Shown here one piece after another: positions 30,098 to 50,138 of a DNA stretch of 50,628 nucleotides (the stretch's first letter is position 1; each line of letters starts with the position of its first letter). The notes below the pieces were generated by a model. It was given only the letters and a program-made list of their open reading frames with translations, was not told the DNA's origin and did no database searches. The stretch covers positions 1-50,628 of the forward strand of contig JAPLTG010000014.1 in assembly GCA_026398255.1 (NCBI GenBank), read 5' to 3'. Position numbers and translations under genes: made by a program. Source of the stretch: Verrucomicrobiota bacterium. GTDB taxonomy: Bacteria > Verrucomicrobiota > Verrucomicrobiia > Chthoniobacterales > Terrimicrobiaceae.

Positions 30098-30475
30098 AAA
30101 ATAGGACCGCCGTGGGCTTCCCCCTCCAAGAGGTCGCCTTACGGCGGCGTTCCCGGGTTGCCCCGGGACTCTTTTATCCTTGGGACCATCCATGTCGCAC
30201 TCCCCAGTGCTTCATGGCGGTGGTCCTATAGTTTCCCATAGTTCACTTACCCCGTGCAGGGGCCGCTGTGGTCACTCCTCCCAGAGCTAGCAGCGGTGCC
30301 CCTGCAAATTTTTTTCATTTACCCAAAGTCTCTTTACATCCCTCTTATTTTAAAAATTCCTCCAAGTCTTTGCGCTTTTCTCGGGCAAAGCGTGCGGGCG
30401 GCTTTGCCGCTGATTTGGGTCGTTTCGGCGAAACAACCCTACCATTTTTTCGATGGGCGTGGACGCACAATCTCC
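30098..30475 (-). repeat. Element T1: hairpin-rich repeat downstream of ARP1
   Basis: About 378 bp, highly similar to 35367-35745. Conserved stems: CCGCCGT 30107-30113 with ACGGCGG 30141-30147; a CCATG/CATGG pair around 30190-30215; a 13-bp stem 30256-30268 with 30291-30305; a GCGGC-ttt-GCCGC hairpin and a GTTTCG-g-CGAAAC hairpin further right. One stem is better paired on the minus strand, where a G-U wobble replaces a mismatch, so the element is probably the 3' UTR of ARP1. The whole gap 30041-30475 contains no convincing gene; short frames on either strand are by-products of the repeat. Confidence 0.7.
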
Positions 30476-33400
30476 TCAAGGCGCTGACGGAGCAGCGCCC
30501 TCCAAGTTCGTTTGTGTAGTGAAATTTTTTTTCTTCCTCCACATCCACCATGCCCCGCCGAGGAGGAGCAGGATGCCGGTGGCATAGGTTTCGGGCTCGG
30601 GGACGGGGATGATGTGGTAGCCGCTCAGGCCGGAGTTGAAACTGGTTGGCTGGAATCCAAGGTCGTAGCCGCTGCCGAGGAAGCTGTCGCCGCCGCCCAC
30701 CGCGCCGCTGTGGAACCTGATTTTCGCCAGCGCGGCGTCGCTGAGGTCCGGGCCGAAATAGACTTTGTCGGTGTCGTTGCCAGTTCCCCCACCCCATAGC
30801 GTCGCGCCGGTCCAGTTGTAGATGTCGAGCGTGAAGGTTCGTGCTGGTGCCGTTGAGGGTGATGTTCATTCCGTTGATGGCGTCGTCCGCGCTCACGAGC
30901 AGCGTGCCGCCGTTGACTTGGACGGTATTGTTGGATCCGAGGGCGTTGGCGTTGGCGGCGTTGAGCGTGCCGGTGGCGATGACTGTCGACCCGTTGTAGG
31001 AATTGCTGCCGCTCAAAATAAGAGTGCCGTTGCCGATTTTGGTCACGCCGCCGTTGCCGGCGACCGCGCCGGAAACCGTGAGCGTGTCGCCGGCGTCAAC
31101 ATCCCAAGTGGCATTGTTCACCGTGATCGCACCGCTCAGGGTGGCGCTTTGGGTGGCGAGGACATTGTAGACCGACATGGCGTTTGTGATAGTGCCGGTG
31201 GTGTCGAGTTTCAGGAGCGAGGTGCCGTTGGTCTGCGTGATCGTGCCAGTGCCGGCAGCGGCGGCGTTGCCGATCACGAACGTGCCGGTGTTGAGCGTGG
31301 TGCCGCCAGAGTAGGTATTGCTGCCGGAGAGGGTGAGGGTGCCGCTGCCGGATTTTGCCAGATTTCCGGAGCCTTGCACGACGCTGGAGATGGTGGTGTT
31401 GGTGGAGGTGTTGGTGGTGAGGGTGAATCCCGTGCCGAGGGAGAGATTGCCGCCAGTGCCTGCTATGGCACCGATTGTCATGTTATTGCCGATGGCGAGC
31501 GTGCCGGCTGTGATGGTTGTGAGGCCGGTATAGGAGTTGGTGCCGTTAAGCGTAAGGGTGCTTGTGTTGCTCTTGGTGAGGTTGCCAGTGCCGGTGATGT
31601 TTTGGGAAATTGTGGAACTGGCTGTGGAGTTGTAAGAAAAAGTGCCGTTGTTGGTAAAGGCCAGGGATGCGGAGAAGGTCGGAGTGGAAGACCCGCCGAA
31701 TTCCAACACACCATTGTTTATGGTGATACCTCTGAGTGTGGGTGATGCAGTAACAAGCACCTTTCCCGTTCCATTTTTTGTGATGGCATATGACCCCCCG
31801 ACTGCCAGCAACAGGTCGGCGGTCGCATTGCTGCCGCTGGCCACATTCAAAATCAAGCCACCGTTAGCGGTTTGGTCATTGTAAAAGCCGCCATTTGCAG
31901 AGGTGAGCTGGTTTTGAGCACCCCCATTTGTGTTGATGGTGAAAAATTGACCGAATTGAATCCAACCGTTGAGACCATCATTCAGCAAGGTTCCACCTCC
32001 GTTGCTGTCGAAGTTGACAGTATTTCCATGGAAAACAGGGGTGTTTGAGCCCACCCAACCTATCTGCAGAGTGGATCCGTTGTTGATGTTGACTGTGTTG
32101 TTACTGCCAAAAGCATTACCTCCCGGCGCCACCAATCTTAAGGTTCCCGCGTTGACGGTCTTGGCCCCCGTGAAGGTGCTGGAGGAATTGATCGTCAAGG
32201 TGCCGCTGCCATTTTTGGTTAATCCGAAACCCGCCCCCGCGATGTTCCCGAGCACGGTCAGGTTCCCGGCATTCACCGTGATGGTGCGCGAGGCGCCCAT
32301 CGTCACATTGCCGGTGCCGAGGTTTAGGTCCCGCGTTCCGGTAAATGTGAAGTCGCCGTTCCAGTTTTGCGTATTGTTTTTGGTGAGGGTGATGGCGGCG
32401 CCGCTGGTGTTGTCGATCGTTCCGCCGGTGATCGTGAAGGTGCCGTTGCCGAGTGCGGTGGCACTGTTGATATTCAGCGTGCCGGAATTGAGGGCCGTGG
32501 TTCCATTGTAGGTGTTCGCGCCGGATAGGGTGAGGGCGTTGTTGCCGGTCTTGGTGATCCCTGCCGAACCAGAAATGGCACCTCCGATGGTGATGTTGCC
32601 TGAGGCGGCGTTGATGGTCGACCCGATGTTGATGGCAAGGTCGGTGTTGATGGTTTGGAGGTTGGAGGAGTTGTTGGTGATGGTGCCTATGAGGGCCAGC
32701 GGGGTGCCGCCGCTGGCGCCCGCCGAGCCTGCGCTGGCATTGAGTGTGTAGGCCCCCGCTCCCGAAGCGAAGGTGATATTGGTGACAGTGGTGAGCGTTC
32801 CGTTGCCGATGTTGTTCGTGGCCGTGCCGCCTGCGCCGGTAAAAACAAGGTTGTTGTTGTTGTTCGGAACCGTGTTTTCGGTCCAATTGCTGCCCGTATT
32901 CCAGTTGCCCGTGCCGGTGTTCCATGTCGAGTTGCCGGCCAAGGCGGTGTAGGTAAGGCGGATCGTGCCGCCGGAGGGGTTTAAGAAGCTCCAGGTGCCC
33001 GTGCGGTTCTCGGCGGCGATACCGAAGCTATCGAAATTTGTGGTGAAATTTCCGGAATTGAAAACGCCCGAGAGGCTCGCGGCGCTGATGATGTCCCAAG
33101 AATAGATGCTGCCATTGTTCCATCCTGTGGGTGTGCCGTTCAAATAAACCGTGAAGGGGCTGGCGGCCGTGTTGTTCAGGGTCAAGGCCCCGCTGGCCGT
33201 GATCTGGTCATAGTCCGTGCCGGCCACGGAGGCGTTCACATTTCCGATCGTCAAGGCAAAGCCGGACCCGGCATTGAGCGTGAGCGAGGCGGCGTTGGCT
33301 TTGCCCACTGTGGTGACTGTGGAGTTCGTGCCCACCGAGATGACGCCGCCGGAGTTGAGCGTGAGGGCGCTGGAGGTGATGTTTCCCGCGAGTTGGAGCG

Positions 33401-35249
33401 TGCCGCCGCTGACGGTAGTGGCTCCGTTGTAGGTATTCGCGGTTCCCAAGAGGGTGAGCGTGCCGGTGTTGTTTTTCGTAAGGGAACCGGCGCCCGTGAT
33501 GTTGCCCGAGAGCGTTTGGTTTGCTGTGCTGGAATAGACCAACGCTCCGCTGTTGGAGATAATGGCGGAGTAGCTCCCCCCGCCGAGAAGGCCAGCCCCG
33601 CCGATCTGCAGGGTGCCGGCGCTGATGGTGGTGGTGCCGGTGTAGGTGTTGTTGCCGGAGAGGGTGAGGTTGCCTGCGCCGCTTTTGTTGAGATTGCCGG
33701 TGCCGATGGTGATGTTCCCTGAGGCGATGGTGTCGCCGATCGAGTTGAATGTGAGATTGAAGGTGCCGCCGATCCCCCCCGAGAGGGTAAGCCCTGCCCC
33801 GGAGTTTGTGGCGATGGTGGTGGCTTGGCCAAGGGTGATGGCGCCAGCCCAAGAGTTGTTGCCAGTGTAGCTCCGAAGGGCGGCCCCATTCTGGCCATTC
33901 CAACTGGCGGAGGGGCTGCTATTCAGGGTGAGTGCTTCGGCACCCACGGAGATGTTACCTGTGAGAAGAATCTGGGAGTTGTTGTTGACCTGGGTGCCAT
34001 TGGCAGTGCTGCCGAAGGCATTCGAATGGCCGGCAATGGTCGTGGCGCTCCATCGGGAGTAGGTGATGCCGGTGTATGTGTTGTTTCCCGAGATTTTCCA
34101 GACATCGCCGGCTACCGCTTGAACATTGAGGCTGCCACCCCCACTATAGATGCCAGAAAGCTCGTTGAAATTCGCCCCACCACCGGCATTGCCTTGCAAA
34201 TAGAAGCTTTGGGAGGTGGAGGTGACATTTCCTGACAAGGTGAGCGGTGCATTCCTGGAGGTAATGTAAACACCTGCACCAGTTAGCGAAATCGAGCGGT
34301 TGGAACTTGCCGCAGTGTTTCCCGTGTAAGTAAAAGTGGGCGAGCTCGCGCCGACTCCCAAAGAGATGGAGGAACCAGCCCCCACCGCGGAAGCCACCCC
34401 GGCATTCGCGATCGAGTTGAAGGAAAGCCCCTCGGTGGCACGATCCACGATGAGATTTCCCGTGAAGGTGTTGAGGCCTGTGAGGGTTGTCACGCCGGCG
34501 GTGGTATCCACTTTCAAATCGCCGGTGCCGCTGATGATGCCGCCCAAGGTCAGGTTGCCCATGGCAGTCGCCGCTCCGATTGTGCCGCGCGTGTTCAGCG
34601 TGATGTTATTCGAAAGGGTGTAGCTCGTGCCGGCTGCGGAATCGAGGATCACACTCGAAGAGTTCACAACGACGGAGCTGGTGCCGAAGGTGGAGTTGTT
34701 GCCGACCCTTAGCGTTCCGGCATTCAGAGTGGTCGAGCCAGTGTAGGTATTGTTGCCCGAGAGCGTGAGCGTGCCGGTGCCGTTTTTCGTGAGGCCAGCG
34801 GAGCCTGTGATCGCCGAGGAGATGGTATCGGCGGCGTTGTTCACGGTGATTGTGGGTGTTGTGCCGCCGAGGGAGATGGTGCCGCCAGAGAGGACGATCG
34901 CACCAGATTGGGATCCGAAGGTGAGGGAGTTTGCGCTCACTGTGCCGGAGACGGTGATCGTGCCGGCGGCGAGGCCTGCCGAGGCCGTTCCGAAATTCAG
35001 CGCGTCCGAGGTGGTGGTGGTAGTCGTGCCGGACATGACATTGACTCCCGTCGCGGAAGTGCTCCAGCCTTGGGTGGAATTATTTGTGGTGGGTGCCGCC
35101 CAAGTGCCGCCGGCCGTGCCAAAGCCGGATGTGGAGTCGTTGGAATCCCAATAATAAGTCACCGCGTGCAGACCCGGCGCGATGAGCAAAGTCAATGCCA
35201 GAGCCGCTACGCGGGCGGGCATGAGTTGAGGGAGAAGGGGGATCTTCAT
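30345..35249 (-). CDS. ARP1: giant autotransporter-associated beta-strand repeat protein, sorting signal frameshifted
   Basis: 1634 residues as it stands. Signal peptide MKIPLLPQLMPARVAALALT with cleavage after GLHA. The rest is repeats of the type GTGTLTLSGNNTYTGSTTLNAGTL (TIGR02601-like), which fold as a beta-helix, with a non-repeat block around GNVNASVAGTDYDQI. The C-terminal PEP-CTERM signal is present in the DNA but in another frame from about 30838 on, so this frame ends in unrelated residues. ARP2 has about 36 residues at this point that ARP1 lacks, so a ~100-bp deletion not divisible by three, rather than one base, probably broke it. Likely an extracellular or surface protein that can no longer be anchored. 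Confidence 0.85.
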   Translation of the reverse strand: MKIPLLPQLMPARVAALALTLLIAPGLHAVTYYWDSNDSTSGFGTAGGTWAAPTTNNSTQGWSTSATGVNVMSGTTTTTTSDALNFGTASAGLAAGTITVSGTVSANSLTFGSQSGAIVLSGGTISLGGTTPTITVNNAADTISSAITGSAGLTKNGTGTLTLSGNNTYTGSTTLNAGTLRVGNNSTFGTSSVVVNSSSVILDSAAGTSYTLSNNITLNTRGTIGAATAMGNLTLGGIISGTGDLKVDTTAGVTTLTGLNTFTGNLIVDRATEGLSFNSIANAGVASAVGAGSSISLGVGASSPTFTYTGNTAASSNRSISLTGAGVYITSRNAPLTLSGNVTSTSQSFYLQGNAGGGANFNELSGIYSGGGSLNVQAVAGDVWKISGNNTYTGITYSRWSATTIAGHSNAFGSTANGTQVNNNSQILLTGNISVGAEALTLNSSPSASWNGQNGAALRSYTGNNSWAGAITLGQATTIATNSGAGLTLSGGIGGTFNLTFNSIGDTIASGNITIGTGNLNKSGAGNLTLSGNNTYTGTTTISAGTLQIGGAGLLGGGSYSAIISNSGALVYSSTANQTLSGNITGAGSLTKNNTGTLTLLGTANTYNGATTVSGGTLQLAGNITSSALTLNSGGVISVGTNSTVTTVGKANAASLTLNAGSGFALTIGNVNASVAGTDYDQITASGALTLNNTAASPFTVYLNGTPTGWNNGSIYSWDIISAASLSGVFNSGNFTTNFDSFGIAAENRTGTWSFLNPSGGTIRLTYTALAGNSTWNTGTGNWNTGSNWTENTVPNNNNNLVFTGAGGTATNNIGNGTLTTVTNITFASGAGAYTLNASAGSAGASGGTPLALIGTITNNSSNLQTINTDLAINIGSTINAASGNITIGGAISGSAGITKTGNNALTLSGANTYNGTTALNSGTLNINSATALGNGTFTITGGTIDNTSGAAITLTKNNTQNWNGDFTFTGTRDLNLGTGNVTMGASRTITVNAGNLTVLGNIAGAGFGLTKNGSGTLTINSSSTFTGAKTVNAGTLRLVAPGGNAFGSNNTVNINNGSTLQIGWVGSNTPVFHGNTVNFDSNGGGTLLNDGLNGWIQFGQFFTINTNGGAQNQLTSANGGFYNDQTANGGLILNVASGSNATADLLLAVGGSYAITKNGTGKVLVTASPTLRGITINNGVLEFGGSSTPTFSASLAFTNNGTFSYNSTASSTISQNITGTGNLTKSNTSTLTLNGTNSYTGLTTITAGTLAIGNNMTIGAIAGTGGNLSLGTGFTLTTNTSTNTTISSVVQGSGNLAKSGSGTLTLSGSNTYSGGTTLNTGTFVIGNAAAAGTGTITQTNGTSLLKLDTTGTITNAMSVYNVLATQSATLSGAITVNNATWDVDAGDTLTVSGAVAGNGGVTKIGNGTLILSGSNSYNGSTVIATGTLNAANANALGSNNTVQVNGGTLLVSADDAINGMNITLNGTSTNLHARHLQLDRRDAMGWGNWQRHRQSLFRPGPQRRRAGENQVPQRRGGRRRQLPRQRLRPWIPANQFQLRPERLPHHPRPRARNLCHRHPAPPRRGMVDVEEEKKFHYTNELGGRCSVSALRRLCVHAHRKNGRVVSPKRPKSAAKPPARFAREKRKDLEEFLK
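30476..30838 (-). pseudogene. Out-of-frame PEP-CTERM tail of ARP1
   Basis: In the frame shifted from the main ARP1 reading frame, the sequence encodes FTLDIYNWTGATLW, then VGGGDSFLGSGYDLG and the PEP-CTERM sorting signal PVPEPETYATGILLLLGGAW followed by RKKK. ARP2 carries the same tail in frame. PEP-CTERM signals are processed by exosortase. The last residues (EGAAPSAP) come from a REP-type hairpin at 30480-30499. Confidence 0.8.
30480..30499. repeat. REP-type hairpin at the ARP1 end
   Basis: GGCGCTG-acggag-CAGCGCC followed by CTCC: the same hairpin as at 35750-35769 and as the right half of the valS REP at 15371-15389. Read on the minus strand it supplies the final codons and the stop of the PEP-CTERM frame. 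Confidence 0.75.
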
Positions 35250-35745: not shown

Positions 35746-38700
35746 TTAAGGCGCTGACGGCGCAGCGCCCTCCAGGTTCGTTTGTGTGGTGAAATTTTTT
35801 CTCTTTCGCCAGAGCCACACTCCACCGCCTAGAACGAGCAGGAGGCCGGTGGCCCAGGTTTCGGGCTCGGGGACGGGGATGATTTGATTGCCCCAGGCGG
35901 GTGTGAACCCTGTCGCTTCCAATCCTAAATCGAAGCCGGTGCCTAGGAAGCTGTCGCCACCGCCCACCGCGCCGCTGTGGAACCGGATGTTCGCCAGGGT
36001 TACATCGCTGAGGTCCGGGCCATAATAGACTTTGTCGGTGTCGTTGCCGGTTCCCCCATTCCACAGCGTCGTGCCGGTCCAGTTGTAGATGTCGAGCGTG
36101 AAGGTGCTCATGACAAAGTTATCGAACATGATGGATACGCTGCCATCTCCCAGGTCGATGATGGAGTTTTTGCTCAAGGTTAAGTTATCCACCAATCCGC
36201 TGTAGGTTCCGTTGTCGTTCGCGCTCACGAGCAGCGTGCCGCCGTTGACTTGGACGGTATTGTTGGATCCGAGGGCGTTGGCGTTGGCGGCGTTGAGCGT
36301 GCCGGCGTTGATGACTGTCGAACCGTTGTAGGAGTTCGAACCAGAGAGGATCAATGTGCCGTTGCCGTTTTTGGTGACTCCGCCGTTGCCGGAGACCACG
36401 CCGGAGATGGTGAGTGTGTCGCTGGTGTCGATATCCCAAGTGGCATTGTTCACCGTGATCGCTCCGCTGAGCGTGGCGCTTTGGGAGGCGAGGACATTGT
36501 AGACCGACATGGCGTTTGTGATCGTGCCTGTCGTATCGAATTTCAGGAGCGAGGTGGCATCGGTCTGCGTGATCGTGCCGGTGCCGGCAGCGGCGGCGTT
36601 GCCGATCACGAACGTGCCGGTGTTGAGCGTGGTGCCGCCAGAGTAGGTATTGCTGCCGGAGAGGGTGAGGGTGCCGCTGCCGTTTTTCGTAAGAGCGCCG
36701 GTGCCGCTGATGATGCCGGAGAGGATTTGGTTGCTATTCGAGCCAGCGATGAGGGCTCCGCTGTTGGCGATGTTGCCGGAGTAACTGCCTCCGCCAAGCA
36801 GTCCGGTGGAAGCGATTTCCAAGGTGCTCGAATTGATGGTCGTCGAGCCGGAGTAGGTATTGTTGCCGCTTAGGGATAGCACGCCGGCGCCATTTTTTGT
36901 GAAGCCACTCGTGTTCGTGGAATCCAGCGCACTGGCGAAGGTGACATTGTTTCCATTGGTATCGACGAGGATCACTCCGGTGCTGTTTTTGATACGGGAG
37001 GAAATGTCCGTGGTGATGCCGCCCCCATATTGAAGCCCACCGCCCGTGAAAGTGATGTTGCCCGAGGTTCCCAATCCATTGGCATGGCCCAGGGAAATCG
37101 TTCCGGCGTTGACCGTAGTGACACCGGTGTAGGTGTTGTTGCCACTGAGGGTGAGCGTGCCGTTGCCGATCTTCGTAAGTGCCAGCGTGCCTGCGGTGTT
37201 CTTGATGACGCCGGAGAAGGTGCTCGTGGCATCATTGTCACCGACCGTCAAAGTCGGCGTCCCGCTCACGCCATCCAGCGTGCCGTTACCCGAAAGACCG
37301 TTGATGGTTTCGCTGAAGCCGGCCATTTTGAGGGTGCCAGAGTTGATGATGAGGTTGCCTTTGCCGGCGCCGTTGGAGATTTGTTCGGAGCGGCCAAGCG
37401 TGATGGTGGAATTTGCGGTGCTGATCGTAGTGTTGCCCGCATAGCTGTTGGCAGCACCTGCGTTGTTCAGGGTCAGATTGAGGGTTCCATTGCTCTGGGT
37501 CATTACAGTCAGTCCCGAGATGCCCGAGATCGCACCGGTCACACTGCCTGTCTGCCCGGAGTTTGTTGAATTGAAGATGGCATCGGCCAGATTCGCATTG
37601 ATTGCTCCGGCGATGATGGGATTGGAGGACGCGATGCGAAAGGCCCCCAATTCGGAAGCATCATTCCCTTGAGCGCTGTTCACCACGATGGCATTTTTAA
37701 ATGTGCCGCCCGAGGCCATGTAGATTTGTGACTTGTCGGTGGTGGAGGCCCCCACGGTGACCACGCCTGTTCCGAAAATACCGCTGGTCAAAGCCCCGGG
37801 AGTCCCGGCTCCGATATCTCCACTCGTCCACAGGATTCGGGTGGATGTGGACCCTGTTCCATTTCCCAAAGCGGTGCCGCCGGAGTAGGTGTTTGCCGTG
37901 TTTGTGAGGATGGTGCTGGCCGTGCTGCCTCCAAAAAGTTGGAGTCCCATGCTGCCGGTGAAGAGCTGTGCGCTGGCGGTGCCTGGCATGGCGGTGACGA
38001 TTCTCAGTGTCCCGCCGCTGCCAGCACCGGAGCTGTCCGTGATGGTTCCGGTGGCAGTGGAGAGGCTGCTGATCGTGTTGTTGAAGCCACCGAGATCCAT
38101 GGTAGCGCCTGCGGCCACGCTCACCGCGCTGTTGCCGCCGAAGCTGCTGGTGCTACCCGCCTTGAGTGTGCCGGCGCTGACGGTCGTGGATCCCGTGTAG
38201 GTATTGCTTCCAGCGAGTGTGAGTGTGCCAGTGCCGTTCTTGGTCATGCCGCCCGTGCCACTGATAACGCCGGAGAGGGTTGTGCTCGAATTGGACCCGC
38301 CTGAAGTGAGGGTGTAGGACCCCAGTGCGATGTTGCCTGCACCCGCGATCGAACCCACCGTCTCACTGACACCGAGGTTGAGCACGGCCCCGCTGGAAAC
38401 CGTCACCGCGCTTGTGTCAGCTATGGCACTGCCACCATTAAGACTAAGAGTGCCAGCATTGATCGTAGTGGATCCCGTGTAGGTATTCGCACCGCTGAGC
38501 GTGAGCGTGCCAGCGCCATTCTTTGTCATGCCGCCCGTGCCACTGATAACGCCGGAGAGGGTTGTGCTCGAATTGGACCCGCCTGAAGTGAGGGTGTAGG
38601 ACCCCAGTGCGATGTTGCCTGCGCCCGCGATCGAGCCCACCGTCTCACTGGCACTGAGATTGAGCACGGCCCCGCTGGAAACCGACACTGCACCTGTGTC

Positions 38701-41289
38701 TGAGATGGCGCTGCCACCATTGAGCGTCAGCGTGCCAGCAGAGATGGTTGTCGCTCCGGAGTAGGTGTTGGCTCCACTGAGCGTGAGCGTGCTGTTACCT
38801 GCCTTGGAGAGGCTACCGGTTCCGGAGATAGCCCCGCTGATTGTGATGTTCCCAGCGGTGGCGTTAATTACGCCGGTGGAAGAACCGCCAAACGCCATGG
38901 CCATATTGATCGTCTGGGCATTGGCGGAGTTGTTGGTGATATCTCCTTTCACTGTGAGCGCCGCGCCCCCACTTGCACCGGCTGATCCGGCATTTGCGGC
39001 CAGCGTGTAAGCACCCGCCGAGGCATCAAAGGTGATGCCCGCGATCGATGAGAGCGTGCCGCTGGCAATGTCATTTGTCGCCGTGCCACCGGCACCGGTG
39101 AAAGCGGTGCTCAGATCGGTGACGAGTGCTGGGCTGAAGCCGGATGACCAATTGCCAGTGGTGCCGGACCATGTCGATTGGTTCGAGGCTGTGTAGCTGA
39201 GTGTGATTGTCCCTCCACTCGGGTTGGTGAGGGCCCACAGCCCCGTGCGGTCTCCAGAGGCGATGCCAAAGTTGTTAAAGTTGAGACTGAAGTTTCCGGA
39301 GCTAAATCCCGTTTGGCTTGAGGCGCTGATGATGTCCCAGCTGTAGCTTCCACCATTACTCCACCCCGTAGGCGTGCCGTTGAGATAAATCGTGAACGGA
39401 CTGGCCGCCGTGTTGTTAAGCGTCAATGCACCACTGGCGGTAATCTGGTCGTAATCGACACCTGCCACCGAGGCATTCACATTGCCGATCGTAAAATTGT
39501 ATCCGCCGCCTCCGTTGAAGGTCAGAGAGGAGGCATTGAATTTTGCTGCTGCTGCAGCGGTTCCGGCCGAGATGACTGCTCCGGTATTGATCGTGAGCGC
39601 ACTCGAAGAGAGGTTGCCACTCACGGCCAGCGTGCCGCCGCTCACCGTGGTCGCCCCGCTGTAGGTGTTTTCACCACTTAGTGTGAGTGCGCCCGTGCCA
39701 GTTTTGGTGAGGGCACCCGTGCCGCTAATAACTCCGGACACTGTCGTGTTCGAGTTCGCCCCGCCTGCAGTGAGGGTATTTGAACCCAGCGCAATGTTGC
39801 CCGCACCTGCTATCGAGCCCACTGTCTCGCTGGCCCCCAGATTGAAAACGGCCCCACTGGAGACGCTAACGGCGCTGGAGTCGGAGATCGCACTTCCACC
39901 GCTCACAGTGAGCGTGCCGGCGCTGATGGTGGTGGCTCCGACATAGGTGTTGGCTCCCGAGAGGGTGAGCGTGCCAGAACCGATCTTCGTGAGGGCCAGG
40001 GTGCCTGCGGTATTTTTGATCACCCCAGAGAAGGTGCTCGTCGCGTCATTGTCGCCGACGGTCAGAGTCGGCGTGCCACTCACGCCATCCACCGTGCCGT
40101 TGCTCGAGAGTCCGTTGATGGTTTCACTGAAGCTGGCCATGTTGAATGTGCCGGAGTTGATGATGAGGTTGCCTTTGCCGGCGCCGTTGGCGATTTGATC
40201 GGATTTGCCGAGCGTCAAGGTCGAATTGGTGCCGTTAATAGTTGTGTTTCCCGCGTAGGTGTTGGCGTTCACGGTCGAATTGAGCGTTACATTGAGACCG
40301 CCGCTGCCTTGTGTTAAAACAACCAAGCCCGAGTTGCCAGAGACCACCCCGTTCACGGTGGCTATTCTACCGACGCCATTTTGCGCTTGAAACGTGACAT
40401 CAGCCAGATTGGCGTTGATTGCGCCATTAAGGGTGAGCGGCCCCCCTTCCAACCGGAATGCCCCGAAACTGGCACCGTCTCCCAGCGCGGTGTTCACTAC
40501 AACGGCATTGTTAATTATCGTATTACTAAAGAGATAAAACTGCGCTTTGTCCGTCGCAGCCAAACCGAACGTGATCGCTCCTGTGCCCAGGATGCCATTG
40601 GTTACAACACCTGCGGTCATCGTGCCGATCGTGCCACTTCCAATCCAGCGGGAACCTGCACTACTGGCGCCATAGATCGTTCCGCCAGAATAGGTGTTGT
40701 TCGCGTTGCCAAGAATATTGTTACCAACAAAATTGAGACCCAGGCTGCCGGTGAATAAATTGGTGAGCGTCCCGCTCAGAGCGGTTGAAACCTTCAGGGT
40801 TCCGCCACTGCCTGCTGCAGAACTGTCGGTAATGGCGCCAGCACTTGCATTGGAAAGACTTGATATGGTGTTATTAAAGCCAACGAGATCCAGGACTGCA
40901 CCAGATCCAACAGTGAAGGCGCTGCTGCTGCTCAACCCGGTGGTGCTGCCCGCCTTGAGTGTGCCGGCGTTGATGGTGGTCGCGCCGGAGTAGGTGCTGT
41001 TCCCGGAGAGGGTAAGCGTGCCGGTGCCATTCTTGGTGAGGCCCGCGGAGCCTGTGATCGCCGAGGAAATCGTGTTGGATGCATTGCTGACAGTGATCGT
41101 CGGTGTCGTGCCACCGAGGGAGATGGTGCCGCCGGAGAGGACGACTGCACCGGATTGGGATCCGAAGGTGAGGGAGTTTGCGCTCACTGTGCCGGAGACC
41201 GTGATCGTGCCCGCCCCCAAGCCATAGGAGGCGGTGCCTGTGCCGAAATTCAAGGCATCGGCTGTGGTGGTGTTCGTCGTGCCGGACAT
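35746..41289 (-). CDS. ARP2: giant beta-strand repeat protein with PEP-CTERM tail, 5' truncated
   Basis: 1847 residues from the first in-frame Met; the frame is open to a stop at 41419-41421 but has no signal peptide, so the native start is lost. Dozens of repeats like SGTGALTKNGSGTLTLSGSNTY alternate with longer blocks; two ~330-residue blocks (around 116-450 and 1080-1420) are diverged copies of each other, and a 94-codon tandem repeat lies at 38243-38806. The C-terminus keeps the in-frame signal PVPEPETWATGLLLVLGGGV with RKRK. N- and C-terminal parts closely match ARP1 while the middle differs. Without a signal peptide it should not be exported. Confidence 0.85.
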   Translation of the reverse strand: MSGTTNTTTADALNFGTGTASYGLGAGTITVSGTVSANSLTFGSQSGAVVLSGGTISLGGTTPTITVSNASNTISSAITGSAGLTKNGTGTLTLSGNSTYSGATTINAGTLKAGSTTGLSSSSAFTVGSGAVLDLVGFNNTISSLSNASAGAITDSSAAGSGGTLKVSTALSGTLTNLFTGSLGLNFVGNNILGNANNTYSGGTIYGASSAGSRWIGSGTIGTMTAGVVTNGILGTGAITFGLAATDKAQFYLFSNTIINNAVVVNTALGDGASFGAFRLEGGPLTLNGAINANLADVTFQAQNGVGRIATVNGVVSGNSGLVVLTQGSGGLNVTLNSTVNANTYAGNTTINGTNSTLTLGKSDQIANGAGKGNLIINSGTFNMASFSETINGLSSNGTVDGVSGTPTLTVGDNDATSTFSGVIKNTAGTLALTKIGSGTLTLSGANTYVGATTISAGTLTVSGGSAISDSSAVSVSSGAVFNLGASETVGSIAGAGNIALGSNTLTAGGANSNTTVSGVISGTGALTKTGTGALTLSGENTYSGATTVSGGTLAVSGNLSSSALTINTGAVISAGTAAAAAKFNASSLTFNGGGGYNFTIGNVNASVAGVDYDQITASGALTLNNTAASPFTIYLNGTPTGWSNGGSYSWDIISASSQTGFSSGNFSLNFNNFGIASGDRTGLWALTNPSGGTITLSYTASNQSTWSGTTGNWSSGFSPALVTDLSTAFTGAGGTATNDIASGTLSSIAGITFDASAGAYTLAANAGSAGASGGAALTVKGDITNNSANAQTINMAMAFGGSSTGVINATAGNITISGAISGTGSLSKAGNSTLTLSGANTYSGATTISAGTLTLNGGSAISDTGAVSVSSGAVLNLSASETVGSIAGAGNIALGSYTLTSGGSNSSTTLSGVISGTGGMTKNGAGTLTLSGANTYTGSTTINAGTLSLNGGSAIADTSAVTVSSGAVLNLGVSETVGSIAGAGNIALGSYTLTSGGSNSSTTLSGVISGTGGMTKNGTGTLTLAGSNTYTGSTTVSAGTLKAGSTSSFGGNSAVSVAAGATMDLGGFNNTISSLSTATGTITDSSGAGSGGTLRIVTAMPGTASAQLFTGSMGLQLFGGSTASTILTNTANTYSGGTALGNGTGSTSTRILWTSGDIGAGTPGALTSGIFGTGVVTVGASTTDKSQIYMASGGTFKNAIVVNSAQGNDASELGAFRIASSNPIIAGAINANLADAIFNSTNSGQTGSVTGAISGISGLTVMTQSNGTLNLTLNNAGAANSYAGNTTISTANSTITLGRSEQISNGAGKGNLIINSGTLKMAGFSETINGLSGNGTLDGVSGTPTLTVGDNDATSTFSGVIKNTAGTLALTKIGNGTLTLSGNNTYTGVTTVNAGTISLGHANGLGTSGNITFTGGGLQYGGGITTDISSRIKNSTGVILVDTNGNNVTFASALDSTNTSGFTKNGAGVLSLSGNNTYSGSTTINSSTLEIASTGLLGGGSYSGNIANSGALIAGSNSNQILSGIISGTGALTKNGSGTLTLSGSNTYSGGTTLNTGTFVIGNAAAAGTGTITQTDATSLLKFDTTGTITNAMSVYNVLASQSATLSGAITVNNATWDIDTSDTLTISGVVSGNGGVTKNGNGTLILSGSNSYNGSTVINAGTLNAANANALGSNNTVQVNGGTLLVSANDNGTYSGLVDNLTLSKNSIIDLGDGSVSIMFDNFVMSTFTLDIYNWTGTTLWNGGTGNDTDKVYYGPDLSDVTLANIRFHSGAVGGGDSFLGTGFDLGLEATGFTPAWGNQIIPVPEPETWATGLLLVLGGGVWLWRKRKNFTTQTNLEGAAPSAP
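35750..35769. repeat. REP-type hairpin at the ARP2 stop codon
   Basis: GGCGCTG-acggcg-CAGCGCC followed by CTCC. On the minus strand it encodes the last residues (GAAPSAP) before the stop. Matches 30480-30499 and 15371-15389 apart from the loop. Confidence 0.75.
38243..38806 (-). repeat. 94-codon tandem duplication inside ARP2
   Basis: Two adjacent 282-bp units (38243-38524 and 38525-38806) are nearly identical over their first ~170 bases and similar after that. A third, more diverged relative lies about 1.2 kb further on (39697-39860). The unit keeps the frame, so it changes protein length by whole repeats. Confidence 0.75.
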
Positions 41290-41386
41290 GGCGTTGACTC
41301 CCGTCGCGGAAGTGCTCCAGCCTTGAGTCGCGTTGTTCGTGGTCGGTGCCGCCCAAGTGCCACCAGCCGTGCCAAAGCCCGTCGTG
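41177..41386 (-). repeat. 210-bp direct repeat, copy A (5' end of ARP2)
   Basis: Matches 43169-43378 with two mismatches that I can see. It encodes the mature N-terminal segment TTGFGTAGGTWAAPTTNNAT and the following residues. Upstream of copy A the sequence is unrelated to any ARP gene, so the join at 41386/41387 is a rearrangement point. Confidence 0.9.
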
Positions 41387-41537
41387 GTAGGATTGGGGCT
41401 GCGTAGATGCGGAAAAATCTAAGGAGGGGCATGGCCGACATAGGGGATCGTAGGTTTGGGGGTTATTTATCCATTTCAGGGCTGGGAAAATGCGATGGAT
41501 CCTTGAGCTTCAAAACCAGATCTAGAATTTGAAAACC

Positions 41538-41551
41538 TGGCCAATTGGCTA
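41538..41551. promoter_or_regulatory. TGGCCA palindrome, copy upstream of araC
   Basis: TGGCCAATTGGCTA, one mismatch from the palindrome TGGCCA-N2-TGGCCA found at 35336-35353, 43533-43546 and 43951-43964. It lies between the truncated ARP2 start and the AraC gene, about 270 bp before the latter. Confidence 0.5.
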
Positions 41552-41558
41552 ATTTTCG

Positions 41559-41751
41559 TTATTTGGCGGAGCCTCGTCCACCGATCCTCACCTCGACTGA
41601 GTTGGCTCCCGGCTTTGCTGCGCCGTTGATATCGACCCGGGAAGGTCGCGGCAAACGTGGAGGGCGCTCCCAGGCAAGCAGGCAAAAGAAACAAAAACGC
41701 AAAAATGAGTTTTTGCGTGGAAGGCGTGAGGAGGAGCACAGTGGGTTTCAT
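41559..41751 (-). pseudogene. Remnant of a secreted protein (signal peptide plus short C-terminal piece)
   Basis: From ATG 41751 the minus strand encodes a clear signal peptide (KLIFAFLFLLPACLGAPSTF). After a frame change, VDINGAAKPGANSVEVRIGG and a stop at 41559-41561 follow; this resembles the beta-sandwich end of secreted glycosidases (D-x-G--KPG-N-VEVR). The two ends suggest an internal deletion of a large gene, leaving under 200 bp. Part of the rearranged zone between ARP2 and ARP3. Confidence 0.5.
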
Positions 41752-41817
41752 GCGGGGGGAATTCAGGGAATTCGGTAGAGTCTTGTGACAAGTTGTTATT
41801 GACGCCGAAATTTGTCT

Positions 41818-42696
41818 ATGTCCTATACAACCTTAATTGTGTCTAATTCATCCAAATCTACCTCCCGCGCCGAAGCCGCCACAGAATCCACCTCGAGGCT
41901 ATTGATTGTCTACGACCCCCTCTGGTCCAATCTTCCCGAAAAAGGCCTTCTCCTGCACGAATGCGGATATCTGGAACTAGCAGACAACTGGAATTTCACT
42001 GCGGTCTTCAGCCCTTTTTGGCGCTTGTATTGGAACCCGGATCCCGGCTTTTCGATTGATTTCTCGGGTCAGATCGTGGAGTTGCACTCGGACAACCTGG
42101 TGTTGATTCCCCCGCACTGCTCCTACGATTGCTGGACGAAAAACCCCACCCCGCATTTCTGGATTCATTTCAGCTACCACAAAACGCCAGCGACTCCCCA
42201 AGCCATCGTGTCCAAGCCCTGCGCGGCGGAGTTGGGCGTGATCCAGGACCTTCAGGGAGTCATCAAACAAAGCCGCGCCGAGGAAACACCCGAGCGCGGA
42301 AGGTTGCTCGGAACCGCCTTGGCGCAGATCGCATTATCCCGCACTGACATTGAATGGAAGCAAACCATGCCCACCCATCTTGCCAAACTCCAACGCCACA
42401 TCGACGAGAATTTCGCCGGGGATTTGAGCAACCCCACCCTCGCCAAGTTTGCAGGGACCAGCCTGACCGGCCTGGGACGACTCTTCCATCGCTACCTCGG
42501 GACCAGGGCCGCCCAATATGTCTCCGAGGTGCGAGTGCGAAAAGCCTCCGCCCTCCTCCGAGGAACCAGTCAAAGTATCGAGCAGATCGCCGAGCAGACA
42601 GGCTTCCCGAACCGCTATTATTTCAGCAGAGTCTTCAAAAAAATGACCAGCCACTCCCCGGCGAACTTTCGTGCAAAATACCGCTTCTCGGCTTGA
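41818..42696 (+). CDS. AraC family transcriptional regulator
   Basis: 292 residues from ATG 41818 (a TTG at 41812 is also possible). The N-terminal ~170 residues form a cupin-like sensing domain with repeated aromatic residues (FSPFWRLYWNPDPGF, LIPPHCSYDCW, FWIHFSYH). The C-terminal double helix-turn-helix has HIDENFAGDLSNPTLAKFAG, VRVRKASALLRGTSQSIEQI and the signature GFPNRYYFSRVFKK. Such regulators usually sense a sugar and act on nearby genes; here the candidates are the ARP genes or the polysaccharide block starting at 44333. A CTTGT-g-ACAAG inverted repeat lies at 41782-41792, 25 bp before the start. Confidence 0.93.
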   Translation: MSYTTLIVSNSSKSTSRAEAATESTSRLLIVYDPLWSNLPEKGLLLHECGYLELADNWNFTAVFSPFWRLYWNPDPGFSIDFSGQIVELHSDNLVLIPPHCSYDCWTKNPTPHFWIHFSYHKTPATPQAIVSKPCAAELGVIQDLQGVIKQSRAEETPERGRLLGTALAQIALSRTDIEWKQTMPTHLAKLQRHIDENFAGDLSNPTLAKFAGTSLTGLGRLFHRYLGTRAAQYVSEVRVRKASALLRGTSQSIEQIAEQTGFPNRYYFSRVFKKMTSHSPANFRAKYRFSA

Positions 42697-42763
42697 ACGA
42701 AGACCGGAGACGCGAAATTGGAAACAGAAAAGAAATCTCGCGCAGAGGCACGGTGGGAGGGGC

Positions 42764-42829
42764 TCAAGGAGTGTGGGCGTCCCGCCCACGGGGAGGGAGC
42801 TTTGTGGGCAGGATGCCCACGCTCCTTGA
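42764..42829. repeat. Paired-hairpin REP downstream of araC
   Basis: Outer arms TCAAGGAG 42764-42771 and CTCCTTGA 42822-42829 enclose two perfect hairpins, GTGGGCG-tcc-CGCCCAC and GTGGGCA-gga-TGCCCAC. Same architecture as the valS REPs but a different sequence class. May also act as the araC terminator. Confidence 0.8.
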
Positions 42830-42937
42830 ATTTCTCGGCGTCCCAGCGCCTCGGCGGGAGAAACCCCAAGTTTTTACTCCATTTTACCCCCCGCACGGCA
42901 GAGGACGACCGTGGCTACAATCTCATCTGCGGGGAAT

Positions 42938-43168
42938 TCAGGGCGCCTTTTTCAGAATCCAGGTGGTGCGGGGTGCGTCGCCTAGCGGGAGGTTGTAGGT
43001 AATGTTGTATGTTTTTGAGTCAGGATTGCGGGAGGTTTCCCAGAAATCCTTTCCGTGGACGGTTTGGTCGAGCGCCTGGGTCGCGGGCTCGATTCGGGCG
43101 GCCATTTTTGAAGCAAGTCGATCGAGCAATGGAAGATACTCGTCGTAAAACCGATCTTCGGTGGTGAC
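42938..43168 (-). pseudogene. 3' fragment of an unknown gene
   Basis: About 76 codons ending at 42938, with no start of their own; the frame contains TTEDRFYDEYLPLLDRLASK and ends DAPRTTWILKKAP. Composition is protein-like and it stops abruptly where the ARP3 stump begins at 43169. I do not recognise the family. The rest of the gene is not in the window. Confidence 0.5.
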
Positions 43169-43443
43169 TTTGCGCTCACTGTGCCGGAGACCGTGATCGT
43201 GCCAGCCCCCAAGCCATAGGAGGCGGTGCCTGTGCCAAAATTCAAGGCATCGGCTGTGGTGGTGTTCGTCGTGCCGGACATGGCGTTGACTCCCGTCGCG
43301 GAAGTGCTCCAGCCTTGAGTCGCGTTGTTCGTGGTCGGTGCCGCCCAAGTGCCACCAGCCGTGCCAAAGCCCGTCGTGAGCAAACTCAATGCCAAAGCGG
43401 CTGCGCGGGCAGGCATGAGTTGAGGGAGAAGGGGGATTTTCAT
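43169..43443 (-). pseudogene. ARP3: 5' stump of a third beta-strand repeat gene
   Basis: Starts MKIPLLPQLMPARAAALALS like ARP1, but about 20 residues around the cleavage site are missing, so the signal peptide runs straight into TTGFGTAGGTW. After ~90 residues it breaks at 43168 and continues in unrelated sequence, giving a 153-residue hybrid frame down to 42982. 43169-43378 is copy B of the 210-bp repeat. It probably was the native start of ARP2 or of a lost third gene. Confidence 0.8.
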
Positions 43444-43547: not shown

Positions 43548-43930
43548 TTATTTGGTGCAGGGATTTGACCACCGAGGGCAGGGAGGGCACGGAGGGGGAG
43601 AATTGAAGGCGGAATTTTGACCGCGAAAAACAAGGGGGACATAAACTGTAAACCGGAACACATGCCAGCGGGCGCTGGCTGGGAACCAAGCAACAGGGCG
43701 GTTGCGCGGTAGGCTGCATAAGCAGCCCGAAGGGTGAGACATCCGGGGGGATGCGAACCAACACTGCCTGCCGCAGGCAGCCCGTAGGGTGACATGAGCG
43801 GGAGTGAACACCCGCGCGATAGCGCCATGGTAAAAGGGAAAGTCAAACGTGTAGCCTAGGGTGGGCAACCGGAGCGAAGCCCAGCAACGAGGCAACCGGA
43901 GCGCAGCGGAGTAACGAGGCAAACCGAAAG
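43548..43930. other. Gene-free, hairpin-rich repetitive stretch
   Basis: Part of the ~890-bp gap 43444-44332. Palindromes: GCCAGC-gggc-GCTGGC at 43664-43679, CTGCCTGC-c-GCAGGCAG at 43764-43780, GCGGG/CCCGC at 43798-43815. At 43860-43921 a GCAACCGGAGCG-AGC unit ending in AACGAGGC is repeated twice. Open frames on the minus strand here have skewed, repeat-like composition and are not credible proteins. It could be an RNA or decayed mobile DNA. Confidence 0.45.
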
Positions 43931-43964: not shown

Positions 43965-44225
43965 GGATGAAAAAAAAAAACCGCCCCCTAGAGTTCAACT
44001 CATGCCAAAAATCATACTAGACTCGGTTTTTGAAACAGCCTCCTCGTTGATTTCACAAGCGGCTGCCTTGTTGCGTTTCCTCCCGAAGCCCACGCCGTTT
44101 CAAAGGGCGTCTCCCGATGTTTCCAGCCCAACCCAGACATGAATCCCGCCCCACAAAACAAACCCATCCTTCAAAAAACTCGCCCGTCTCCGGAGCCATC
44201 GGCACCTAGCCCTCTCAAACCTTAA

Positions 44226-49000: not shown

Positions 49001-49588
49001 GTCCGGTCGGGTGAGAACGGTGCCGGAGTGGCGGCAGCTTCTGCGGACCTGCCATTATGGAGCATCGGCAAGCCGGGGCTTTGGCTTTATGAGCCGTCGT
49101 ATGTGCCAACCGAGCCGGAACTCTTCGTCAATCTCTATAACAACATGTGGAATACAAATTTCCCCCTCTGGATTCCCGGCTCGTGGGAAGCGTCGCTCAG
49201 GGTGTGGCCGGTGCCAGCGGGCGCAACCGAGGAGCAGGCGAACTTCACCCCCTCTTGGGAACTGCGCCAACCCCCAGTAGCGGCCTTCGCAGATGGCAAG
49301 CCCGGTAGTCTCCCGCCAACCCAAGCTGGAATCGCTCTCTCGCGCAAGGGCGTCCGGGTTTCCGCATTCTGCCCCAATCCCGACGGCCCTGGCATGGTGT
49401 TGAGGGTCTGGGAGCAAAGCGGTCAGGGCGGCCCACTCACCGTGACGCTGCCAACCGGAATCAAAGCCACCCAAGCCCAGCCGGTTAATCTCCGCGGAGA
49501 ACCCGCAGGGGAACCCATCCCTATCATCAATGGGCAGTTCACAGTTCCGCTCGGAGCATGGGCGCCGGCCAGCTTTATCCTTCCATAA
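46070..49588 (+). CDS. Secreted GH38 alpha-mannosidase-like protein
   Basis: 1172 residues with a signal peptide (PIHLILALIATAIVSLAQAA). Residues ~25-215 resemble an F5/8C-type binding domain. The GH38 domain starts at EEVIITWKCHLDIGYTHP, with zinc ligands His328 and Asp330; AEHTWG supplies the third His (647). The nucleophile is probably in the ETEAADVEE region but I cannot assign it firmly. A C-terminal beta-rich part follows from FNPLPWERDALV, the usual GH38 continuation. Follows the propeller gene by 84 bp; the two are likely co-transcribed. Confidence 0.85.
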   Translation: MKTPIHLILALIATAIVSLAQAADSIPLTTTIPPEKIGVEASSSRGGKIVPENLINGNWINNGFYENNTDSNAMWNTMWQSGVKLQPSSPAPGLPVANAWVRFTFKTPQSPTQCLIWNYNQTDLTNGGFHRAQIFITTDGKSWTPVLVNGADSFEIPKASEAPSEPVSLVVPLSGGAISGLVILAKDNYGSHLYGLSAVRFVTTQEAAVASLPVPDTLQVKGFPVAHLDHGQWQPQVLLSTGTLPVYEAVEATVECEGKTERTRFDASPYGRTRFAANLPPGMEDKRLSNKPLKVTLSSGRWSRSAEAQLEATPWPELEEVIITWKCHLDIGYTHPVPEVIQKYRTGDMDQILAMFEKTKDAPEEERFRWLLPAWAMDLVLDDQQTPERRAKLEEAVRQQRLIWQAMPYTLETEAADVEEIVRGLSFGSQLSRRFGFPLPTHAKQTDMPEQAWALPTILNHAGVNFLHIGANSGSKPDLEWDKIPTLSLWEGPDGSRILLGFSKEYGWESITPPKGWRHKTWLAYFVRGDNAGPPSPQTVQSILAKAREALPGVKVRFGYPSEFAEAILAEEKANPTLPVIRGDMPNTWVHGQMSSPEPTKIHRQATGALVTLGQLDSTLQAFGVATEPVAGPLDLGYRNGGFYAEHTWGINGLYFRGEKLYQPDWQQRYEAGEYKKFDDTYEYHMDYGRNAMKAAQDGIAPRIAALAQNVKMDGPRVVVFNPLPWERDALVSVELPEGLMLPDARRSGKTVTFLAKGLPPGGYKAFAAKAGGEAIPLTGPLKGEIKTKHFTARFDLEKGGISSLIENATGRELVKQGGHVLGQFLHERFSLDHVKKFLGTYPRDWGCSPDGDFAKGGMPGPDKSPYAAMTPTGWKATHTRTSIGEEVILTPTDTLGLAKGYELRFSFPDDPACVDISWKVVDKTPTPIPEGGWICLPFNVQTPSFRVGRIGGTIDPAKDIIFGSNRNLMGVDRAITVRSGENGAGVAAASADLPLWSIGKPGLWLYEPSYVPTEPELFVNLYNNMWNTNFPLWIPGSWEASLRVWPVPAGATEEQANFTPSWELRQPPVAAFADGKPGSLPPTQAGIALSRKGVRVSAFCPNPDGPGMVLRVWEQSGQGGPLTVTLPTGIKATQAQPVNLRGEPAGEPIPIINGQFTVPLGAWAPASFILP

Positions 49589-49610
49589 TCACCAACCCAC
49601 CAACCCAAAC

Positions 49611-50138
49611 ATGAAAACCACCCCGCAAAACAAACCCACCCGTCAACCTCACTCGCACCTCACCGCATCCATCAGCACCGGGCTATTGATCGCCATGGCT
49701 GTCGTGGCCGCCCTGTTGTTCCTCAGCTCCTATTTTTTATTTTCAAAAAACGCCCCGACTGCGGCGAATTCCGAACCCAAGCCAACCACCGCTGCGACCC
49801 CCGTGGAAAAGCCCCCGGCCCCGCCAGCACCGAAGAGAAACCCTCCGCCAAACACCCCAAACGCGAAGATCAATAAACTCAAAGCATTCGACCTCGACGG
49901 GAACGGCATCTGTCCGCGCGAGGAGTATATGCGGGCCCACTTGCAGCACTTTGATCGATGCGACAAAAATAAAGACGGATTGCTCGATCGCACCGAGTTC
50001 CCCGCGAATGCCATCGGCTATCACGACAAAAACAAAGATACCAAACTGGACCGCGATGAATACCAGGTGCGCTACGACGAACTCTTCCTGATTGAAGACA
50101 AAAACAAAGACGGCGTCCTGTTTGTGGAAGAGATGTAA
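49611..50138 (+). CDS. Membrane-anchored EF-hand protein
   Basis: 175 residues from ATG 49611, 22 bp after the GH38 stop. One membrane segment (about residues 21-44, GLLIAMAVVAALLFLSSYFL) is followed by a Pro/Ala/Thr-rich linker and four EF-hand loops: DLDGNGICPREE, DKNKDGLLDRTE, DKNKDTKLDRDE and DKNKDGVLFVEE. The third has Thr for Gly at loop position 6. The calcium-binding part would lie outside the inner membrane. Its place in the glycosidase block suggests a calcium-dependent scaffold or sensor there, but this is inference. Confidence 0.85.
   Translation: MKTTPQNKPTRQPHSHLTASISTGLLIAMAVVAALLFLSSYFLFSKNAPTAANSEPKPTTAATPVEKPPAPPAPKRNPPPNTPNAKINKLKAFDLDGNGICPREEYMRAHLQHFDRCDKNKDGLLDRTEFPANAIGYHDKNKDTKLDRDEYQVRYDELFLIEDKNKDGVLFVEEM

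Follow-up and report, generated by a model that had tools for sequence, protein, structure and literature searches.

Why does a bacterial genome carry two nearly identical 210-bp sequences, in the same orientation, on either side of an intact araC-family regulator gene? Could recombination between them switch the export of a surface protein, as the first-pass annotation of this locus proposed, or does the repeat hint at a more ordinary history among related genes? The locus lies in a window of 50,628 nucleotides, the whole stretch of DNA analyzed here, which represents one complete contig of a 2.6-Mb, 44-contig draft genome of a Verrucomicrobiota bacterium. The repeat pair is real and mostly ordinary in origin. 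We favor, with a probability of roughly 0.75, a decaying cluster of PATR/PEP-CTERM paralogues in which one patch was copied from the gene ARP2 into the remnant of a second gene, ARP3, hereafter the stump. On this reading, recombination between paralogues created the direct repeat as a by-product.

Results and Discussion

A near-perfect direct repeat

The two copies, R in ARP2 and R' in the stump (Table 1), align without gaps and are identical at 208 of 210 positions. They face the same way at a spacing of 1,992 bp, which bears out the 210-bp repeats, differing at about two positions, that had been noted earlier. Counted on the minus strand, the mismatches fall at offsets 141 and 174, with none in the first 141 nt. 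This likeness is far above chance: the next best place in the 2.6-Mb genome (C22:8567; 44 contigs) reaches only 84%, followed by ARP1 (34927-35126) at 82%. Outside the repeat similarity ends abruptly and the flanks are unrelated, with a short upstream TGGCCA element as the sole exception. The repeat covers roughly codons 40-110, in the N-terminal part of the ARPs, which belong to the PATR (PF12951/TIGR02601) protein family.

Table 1. Features of the locus, in window coordinates. Strand is given as + or -, with a dot where neither applies.
Feature	Position	Strand	Remarks
ARP1	30345..35249	-	Signal peptide intact; PEP-CTERM out of frame, C-terminal deletion/frameshift near 30840
ARP2 body	35746..41400	-	PATR/TIGR02601 repeat protein; C-terminal PEP-CTERM (VPEP...hydrophobic...RKRK)
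R in ARP2	41177..41386	-	Apparently ancestral copy; 208/210 to R'; carries the base of all five other ARPs at site 141 and of G001C93 and G015 at site 174
ARP2 degenerate own start	41398..41441	-	MSAMPLLRFFRIYAA, then 61-nt frameshifting deletion
TGGCCA promoter-like element	41497..41568	-	Upstream of ARP2; 94% to element on contig C14
Remnant	41562..41751	-	Signal peptide MKPTVLLL...STFA, out of frame with ~20-codon fragment of ~1,180-aa protein (VDINGAAKPGANSVEVRI)
araC-family regulator	41812..42696	+	Intact; Pfam HTH_18 (PF12833, E 2.8e-19) and HTH_AraC
REP-like palindromic intergenic repeat	around 42754..42844	.	More copies on C21, C9, C28 and C17, and in G015
LamG-domain gene 3' tail	42938..43168	-	About 75 codons; upstream ~90% gone; out of frame with stump
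R' in stump	43169..43378	-	Patch, probably copied from ARP2; both ends abut unrelated or differently derived sequence
Stump start	43378..43443	-	MKIPLLPQLMPARAAALALSLL; ATG 43443 and 22 signal-peptide codons, then 17 codons missing in frame when aligned with intact ARPs
EF-hand-type gene 5' remnant	44139..44225	+	First ~28 codons; divergent from stump

Which of the two copies is the older one? At site 141 the ARP2 base is present in five of five other ARPs, and at site 174 in the genus relatives G001 (contig C93) and G015; the stump differs at both. Because these other ARPs carry the ARP2 base, both substitutions look derived in the stump copy, two sites being too few for a strong claim of polarity.

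Could the repeat or its junctions have been created by misassembly of ARP paralogues? A draft in 44 contigs that contains similar paralogues invites this question. However, the joints of the signal peptide to R' and of R' to the LamG tail lack the overlap needed for a false join, the copies differ at two sites, and the intervening block enters R at both ends, where the only other path is a deleted chromosome plus a circle. We therefore consider an assembly artefact highly unlikely.

The stump combines pieces of different ancestry

Intact ARP starts are found in ARP1 (window position 35249), on contig C22 of the same genome, and in two relatives, G001 (contig C93) and G015 (contig C54). All four display a common order: signal peptide and cleavage region (APGLHA in ARP1, APEIHA in C22), TYYWD, and a GFGTAGGTW segment. 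Signal peptides were judged by alignment with these starts, and PEP-CTERM frames by eye from the motif. Aligned with the N-termini of ARP1, C22, G001 and G015, the stump retains the first 22 codons of a signal peptide and then skips 17. The signal peptide ascribed to the stump in the first-pass annotation is thus there in part: its beginning is present, but it lacks the cleavage site and the last part of the hydrophobic region, both found in the intact relatives, and the in-frame N-terminal signal peptide is incomplete.

Beyond the patch, the stump runs into the 3' end of an unrelated LamG-protein gene, with which it is not in frame, giving a product of 153 aa without PEP-CTERM. The LamG tail derives from a family of ~940 aa, with paralogues on C17 (57036-59845) and C13 of the same genome and on C54 in G015. 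Promoter and signal peptide of the stump match ARP1 at 135/154 positions (88%) and ARP2 at 60/126, whereas the patch R' matches ARP2 at 208/210 (99%) and ARP1 at 164/197. Judged from sequence, the stump is a chimera, with a 5' part nearest to ARP1, a patch nearest to ARP2 and a tail nearest to LamG genes. The stump shows the marks of a chimeric pseudogene from paralogue recombination: segments with different closest relatives, abrupt joints and a broken reading frame.

ARP2 has a damaged start of its own

Did ARP2 lose its signal peptide at the repeat, as had been claimed? ARP2 possesses an ATG at 41441, outside the repeat, with 44 nt of signal-peptide start. These match the start of the C22 signal peptide at 27 of 44 positions (61%; ungapped, ATG-anchored, and only 44 nt in length). 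Among the 1,433 ATGs in the window, a score of 27 is reached only by ARP1, the stump and 41441. Between this start and the repeat, 61 nt are absent relative to ARP1 and C22 and the frame is shifted, which leaves ARP2 without an in-frame N-terminal signal peptide. A TGGCCA promoter-like element lies upstream at about the same distance as upstream of the stump. Given this start and the 61-nt deletion, ARP2 most likely lost its signal peptide through a small deletion of its own, and the earlier claim is not supported.

The same findings bear on the main rival to our reading, in which ARP2 and the stump were once a single gene, cut at codons 23-35 when the 1,992-bp block was inserted along with a templated copy of R. 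Stump codons 1-22 and ARP2 from codon ~35 onward indeed make up nearly one gene, and the stump stands divergently beside EF-hand DNA, at the position taken in G001 by an ARP with an intact start. A split would, however, leave the homologous start of ARP2 to chance, at about 1 in 1,400 ATGs, and ARP2 has its TGGCCA element at about the usual distance. A split of this kind seems to us improbable.

The body of ARP2 matches Pfam PF12951 (E 5e-79, 10 PATR stretches) and TIGR02601 (E 2.5e-86), its PEP-CTERM is in frame by eye, and its main frame stays open over some 1,850 codons. With a frame of this length, which counts against our reading, the damage could be recent, or expression could still begin at an internal ATG. 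ARP1, with 8 PATR stretches (E 2.3e-50), likewise has multiple PATR repeats and is the mirror image of ARP2, having kept its signal peptide with its PEP-CTERM tail out of frame. ARP1 and ARP2 also match without a mismatch over two tracts, one of 102 and one of 86 bp, which suggests a wider exchange among ARP sequences. The signal peptide, beta-strand repeats and PEP-CTERM tail of PATR (PF12951)/TIGR02601 PEP-CTERM proteins are all found within this cluster, but in none of its three members in the window are the two ends both undamaged and in frame.

A patch probably copied within a decaying cluster

How could this arrangement have come about? We propose that two or more neighboring ARP paralogues were undergoing deletions. 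The stump would be what is left of ARP3, namely the start of a gene of the ARP1 type that was once divergent from the EF-hand gene as in G001, where an ARP and an EF-hand gene keep full starts in the same divergent layout (in G001 the contig breaks off shortly beyond the start of the ARP). The body of ARP3 and most of the neighboring LamG gene would have been lost, and a patch of 210-213 bp, recently copied from ARP2, would now separate the LamG tail from what remains of the signal peptide. The copying may have been a gene conversion, or the patch may be templated filler added during repair of the ARP3-LamG deletion; we favor neither over the other. ARP2 would have kept its start and lost the signal-peptide core in a separate event, the 61-nt frameshifting deletion. 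The copying mechanism and the order of events are inferred, whereas the identities of the fragments, their junctions and frames, the mixed ancestry of the stump and the polarity of the two substitutions can be read from the sequences. In our best reading the zone is a graveyard, where genes of a cluster of PATR/PEP-CTERM surface-protein paralogues have decayed at many points. The intact araC amid these fragments may be under selection, which counts against this reading.

Similar patchwise homogenization of two linked paralogous outer-membrane genes is seen in omp2a/omp2b of Brucella, where deletions are ascribed to recombination with the partner gene (PMC7050475). The Brucella genes are both nearly full-length and in opposite orientation, whereas one of the pair at the present locus is a pseudogene stump. 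Unlike in omp2a/omp2b, the patch spans nearly all of the ARP homology that remains in the stump.

The DNA between the repeats

The inventory of the block given by the first-pass annotation, a signal-peptide remnant, araC, a REP and the 3' end of a gene, is correct in every item. The ~20-codon fragment behind the remnant's signal peptide matches open frames of 1,186 aa in G009 (E 5e-4) and 1,177 aa in G015 (E 0.02). The best AraC relatives in the genus are 42-44% identical, and two of the three closest homologues were inspected, both of which adjoin rhamnose-type transporter genes (rhaT-like; family assigned by eye). An AraC scan of the genome contigs returned one distant Planctomycetota locus only. 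An orthologous araC locus was considered as the source of the block and discarded in view of this 42-44% identity and of the rhaT-like neighbors in the two cases. Carriage by a mobile element was likewise set aside, no transposase- or integrase-like ORF being seen within the block.

The 72-bp TGGCCA-palindrome element at 41497-41568 recurs at 94% identity at G000:C14:70075-70146, so that it lies upstream of two unrelated genes; the C14 copy precedes a glycosidase-like gene. Similar elements are also found upstream of ARP1 and the stump. A regulon motif or a dispersed repeat are both possible. Across the whole window, Rfam gave zero matches at gathering score; only animal miRNA models at chance level fell on the REP.

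Do the repeats form a switch?

What would a crossover between R and R' produce? Deletion of the 1,992 bp in silico joins the stump start to ARP2 in frame, yielding a protein of 1,901 aa (MKIPLLPQLMPARAAALALSLLTTGFGTAGG...) that ends in the ARP2 PEP-CTERM. Of the earlier claim that such a crossover removes araC and rejoins a signal peptide in frame, the deletion and the in-frame fusion stand; the signal peptide comes without 17 codons. In a 10-residue hydropathy window the rejoined product scores 2.09, versus 2.35-4.07 for the four intact starts, and a weak signal peptide in this product is conceivable.

The first-pass annotation went further and saw in this crossover a switch, comparable to phase variation, that turns ARP2 export on and the regulator off. 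The geometry fits, with copies in the same orientation, 141 nt of unbroken identity and the 1,901-aa product in frame. However, the deletion would be one-way. The repeats are direct, no recombinase was seen in the ORFs that they enclose, and the block would leave as a non-replicating circle. An excised circle that does not replicate is lost from the cell line. The rejoined signal peptide is truncated and lacks the usual cleavage region, and no link of araC to ARP2 emerged. Nor is the arrangement conserved or recurrent: 16 genomes of the genus and 26 of the family, many of them drafts, contain no second 99% repeat pair and no like arrangement, G001 being one relative with an intact gene start. 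Common gene ancestry accounts for the repeat itself. We regard a switch as very improbable.

A population polymorphism of comparable layout argues in the other direction. In Treponema pallidum subsp. endemicum, the tpr paralogues tprF and tprG are fused when the 2.3 kb between two direct repeats of 75 bp are lost, and this deletion is polymorphic within one strain; the authors cite polymerase slippage (PMC7112178). As at the present locus, direct repeats enclose about 2 kb within a paralogous family, and loss of the intervening DNA creates a chimeric gene. In Treponema both forms are observed in one strain, whereas here the undeleted form is the only one known; the repeat measures 210 bp here versus 75 bp, and the product here has a damaged signal peptide. 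The deletion in tprF/tprG was read by its authors as ongoing loss and not as a controlled switch (PMC7112178). For bacteria, literature searches provided nothing usable on direct-repeat deletion rates or templated insertions.

The repeat could still be a passive substrate for a one-way deletion of 1,992 bp. There is a very slim chance that RecA-mediated deletion occurs in the living population, in which case ARP2 would be exported by way of the shortened signal peptide, possibly cleaved between GTA and GG, and AraC would be lost. If true, this one-way surface variant would be a modest example of such variation. As we read it, the locus illustrates, for one bacterial genus, how genes for PATR/PEP-CTERM surface proteins decay and swap segments. 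It also calls for caution, as a near-perfect direct repeat and an in-frame fusion can arise as by-products of paralogue recombination and not as a switch.

Observations on neighboring and related loci

The ARP gene of G015 (L088 5948-9763, G015:C54) is split into two open frames, which suggests widespread decay of ARP genes in the genus. An ARP start remnant in G008 (L056, G008:C333:3846-3971) adjoins a glycosidase-like gene. A breakpoint common to this remnant and the stump was considered and rejected: the 17-nt match fits better, by eye, as a degenerate continuation after GFGTA. The EF-hand-type gene occurs twice in the window, as the 5' remnant at 44139-44225 and as an intact copy at 49530-50138, 5.4 kb apart; its similarity to lanmodulin is weak (33.5 bits versus a cutoff of 135). 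Positions 43651-43921 hold a dispersed intergenic repeat whose short modules measure ~32 and ~43 nt, without Rfam match, which is found in many places across the genus at up to 94% identity between species.
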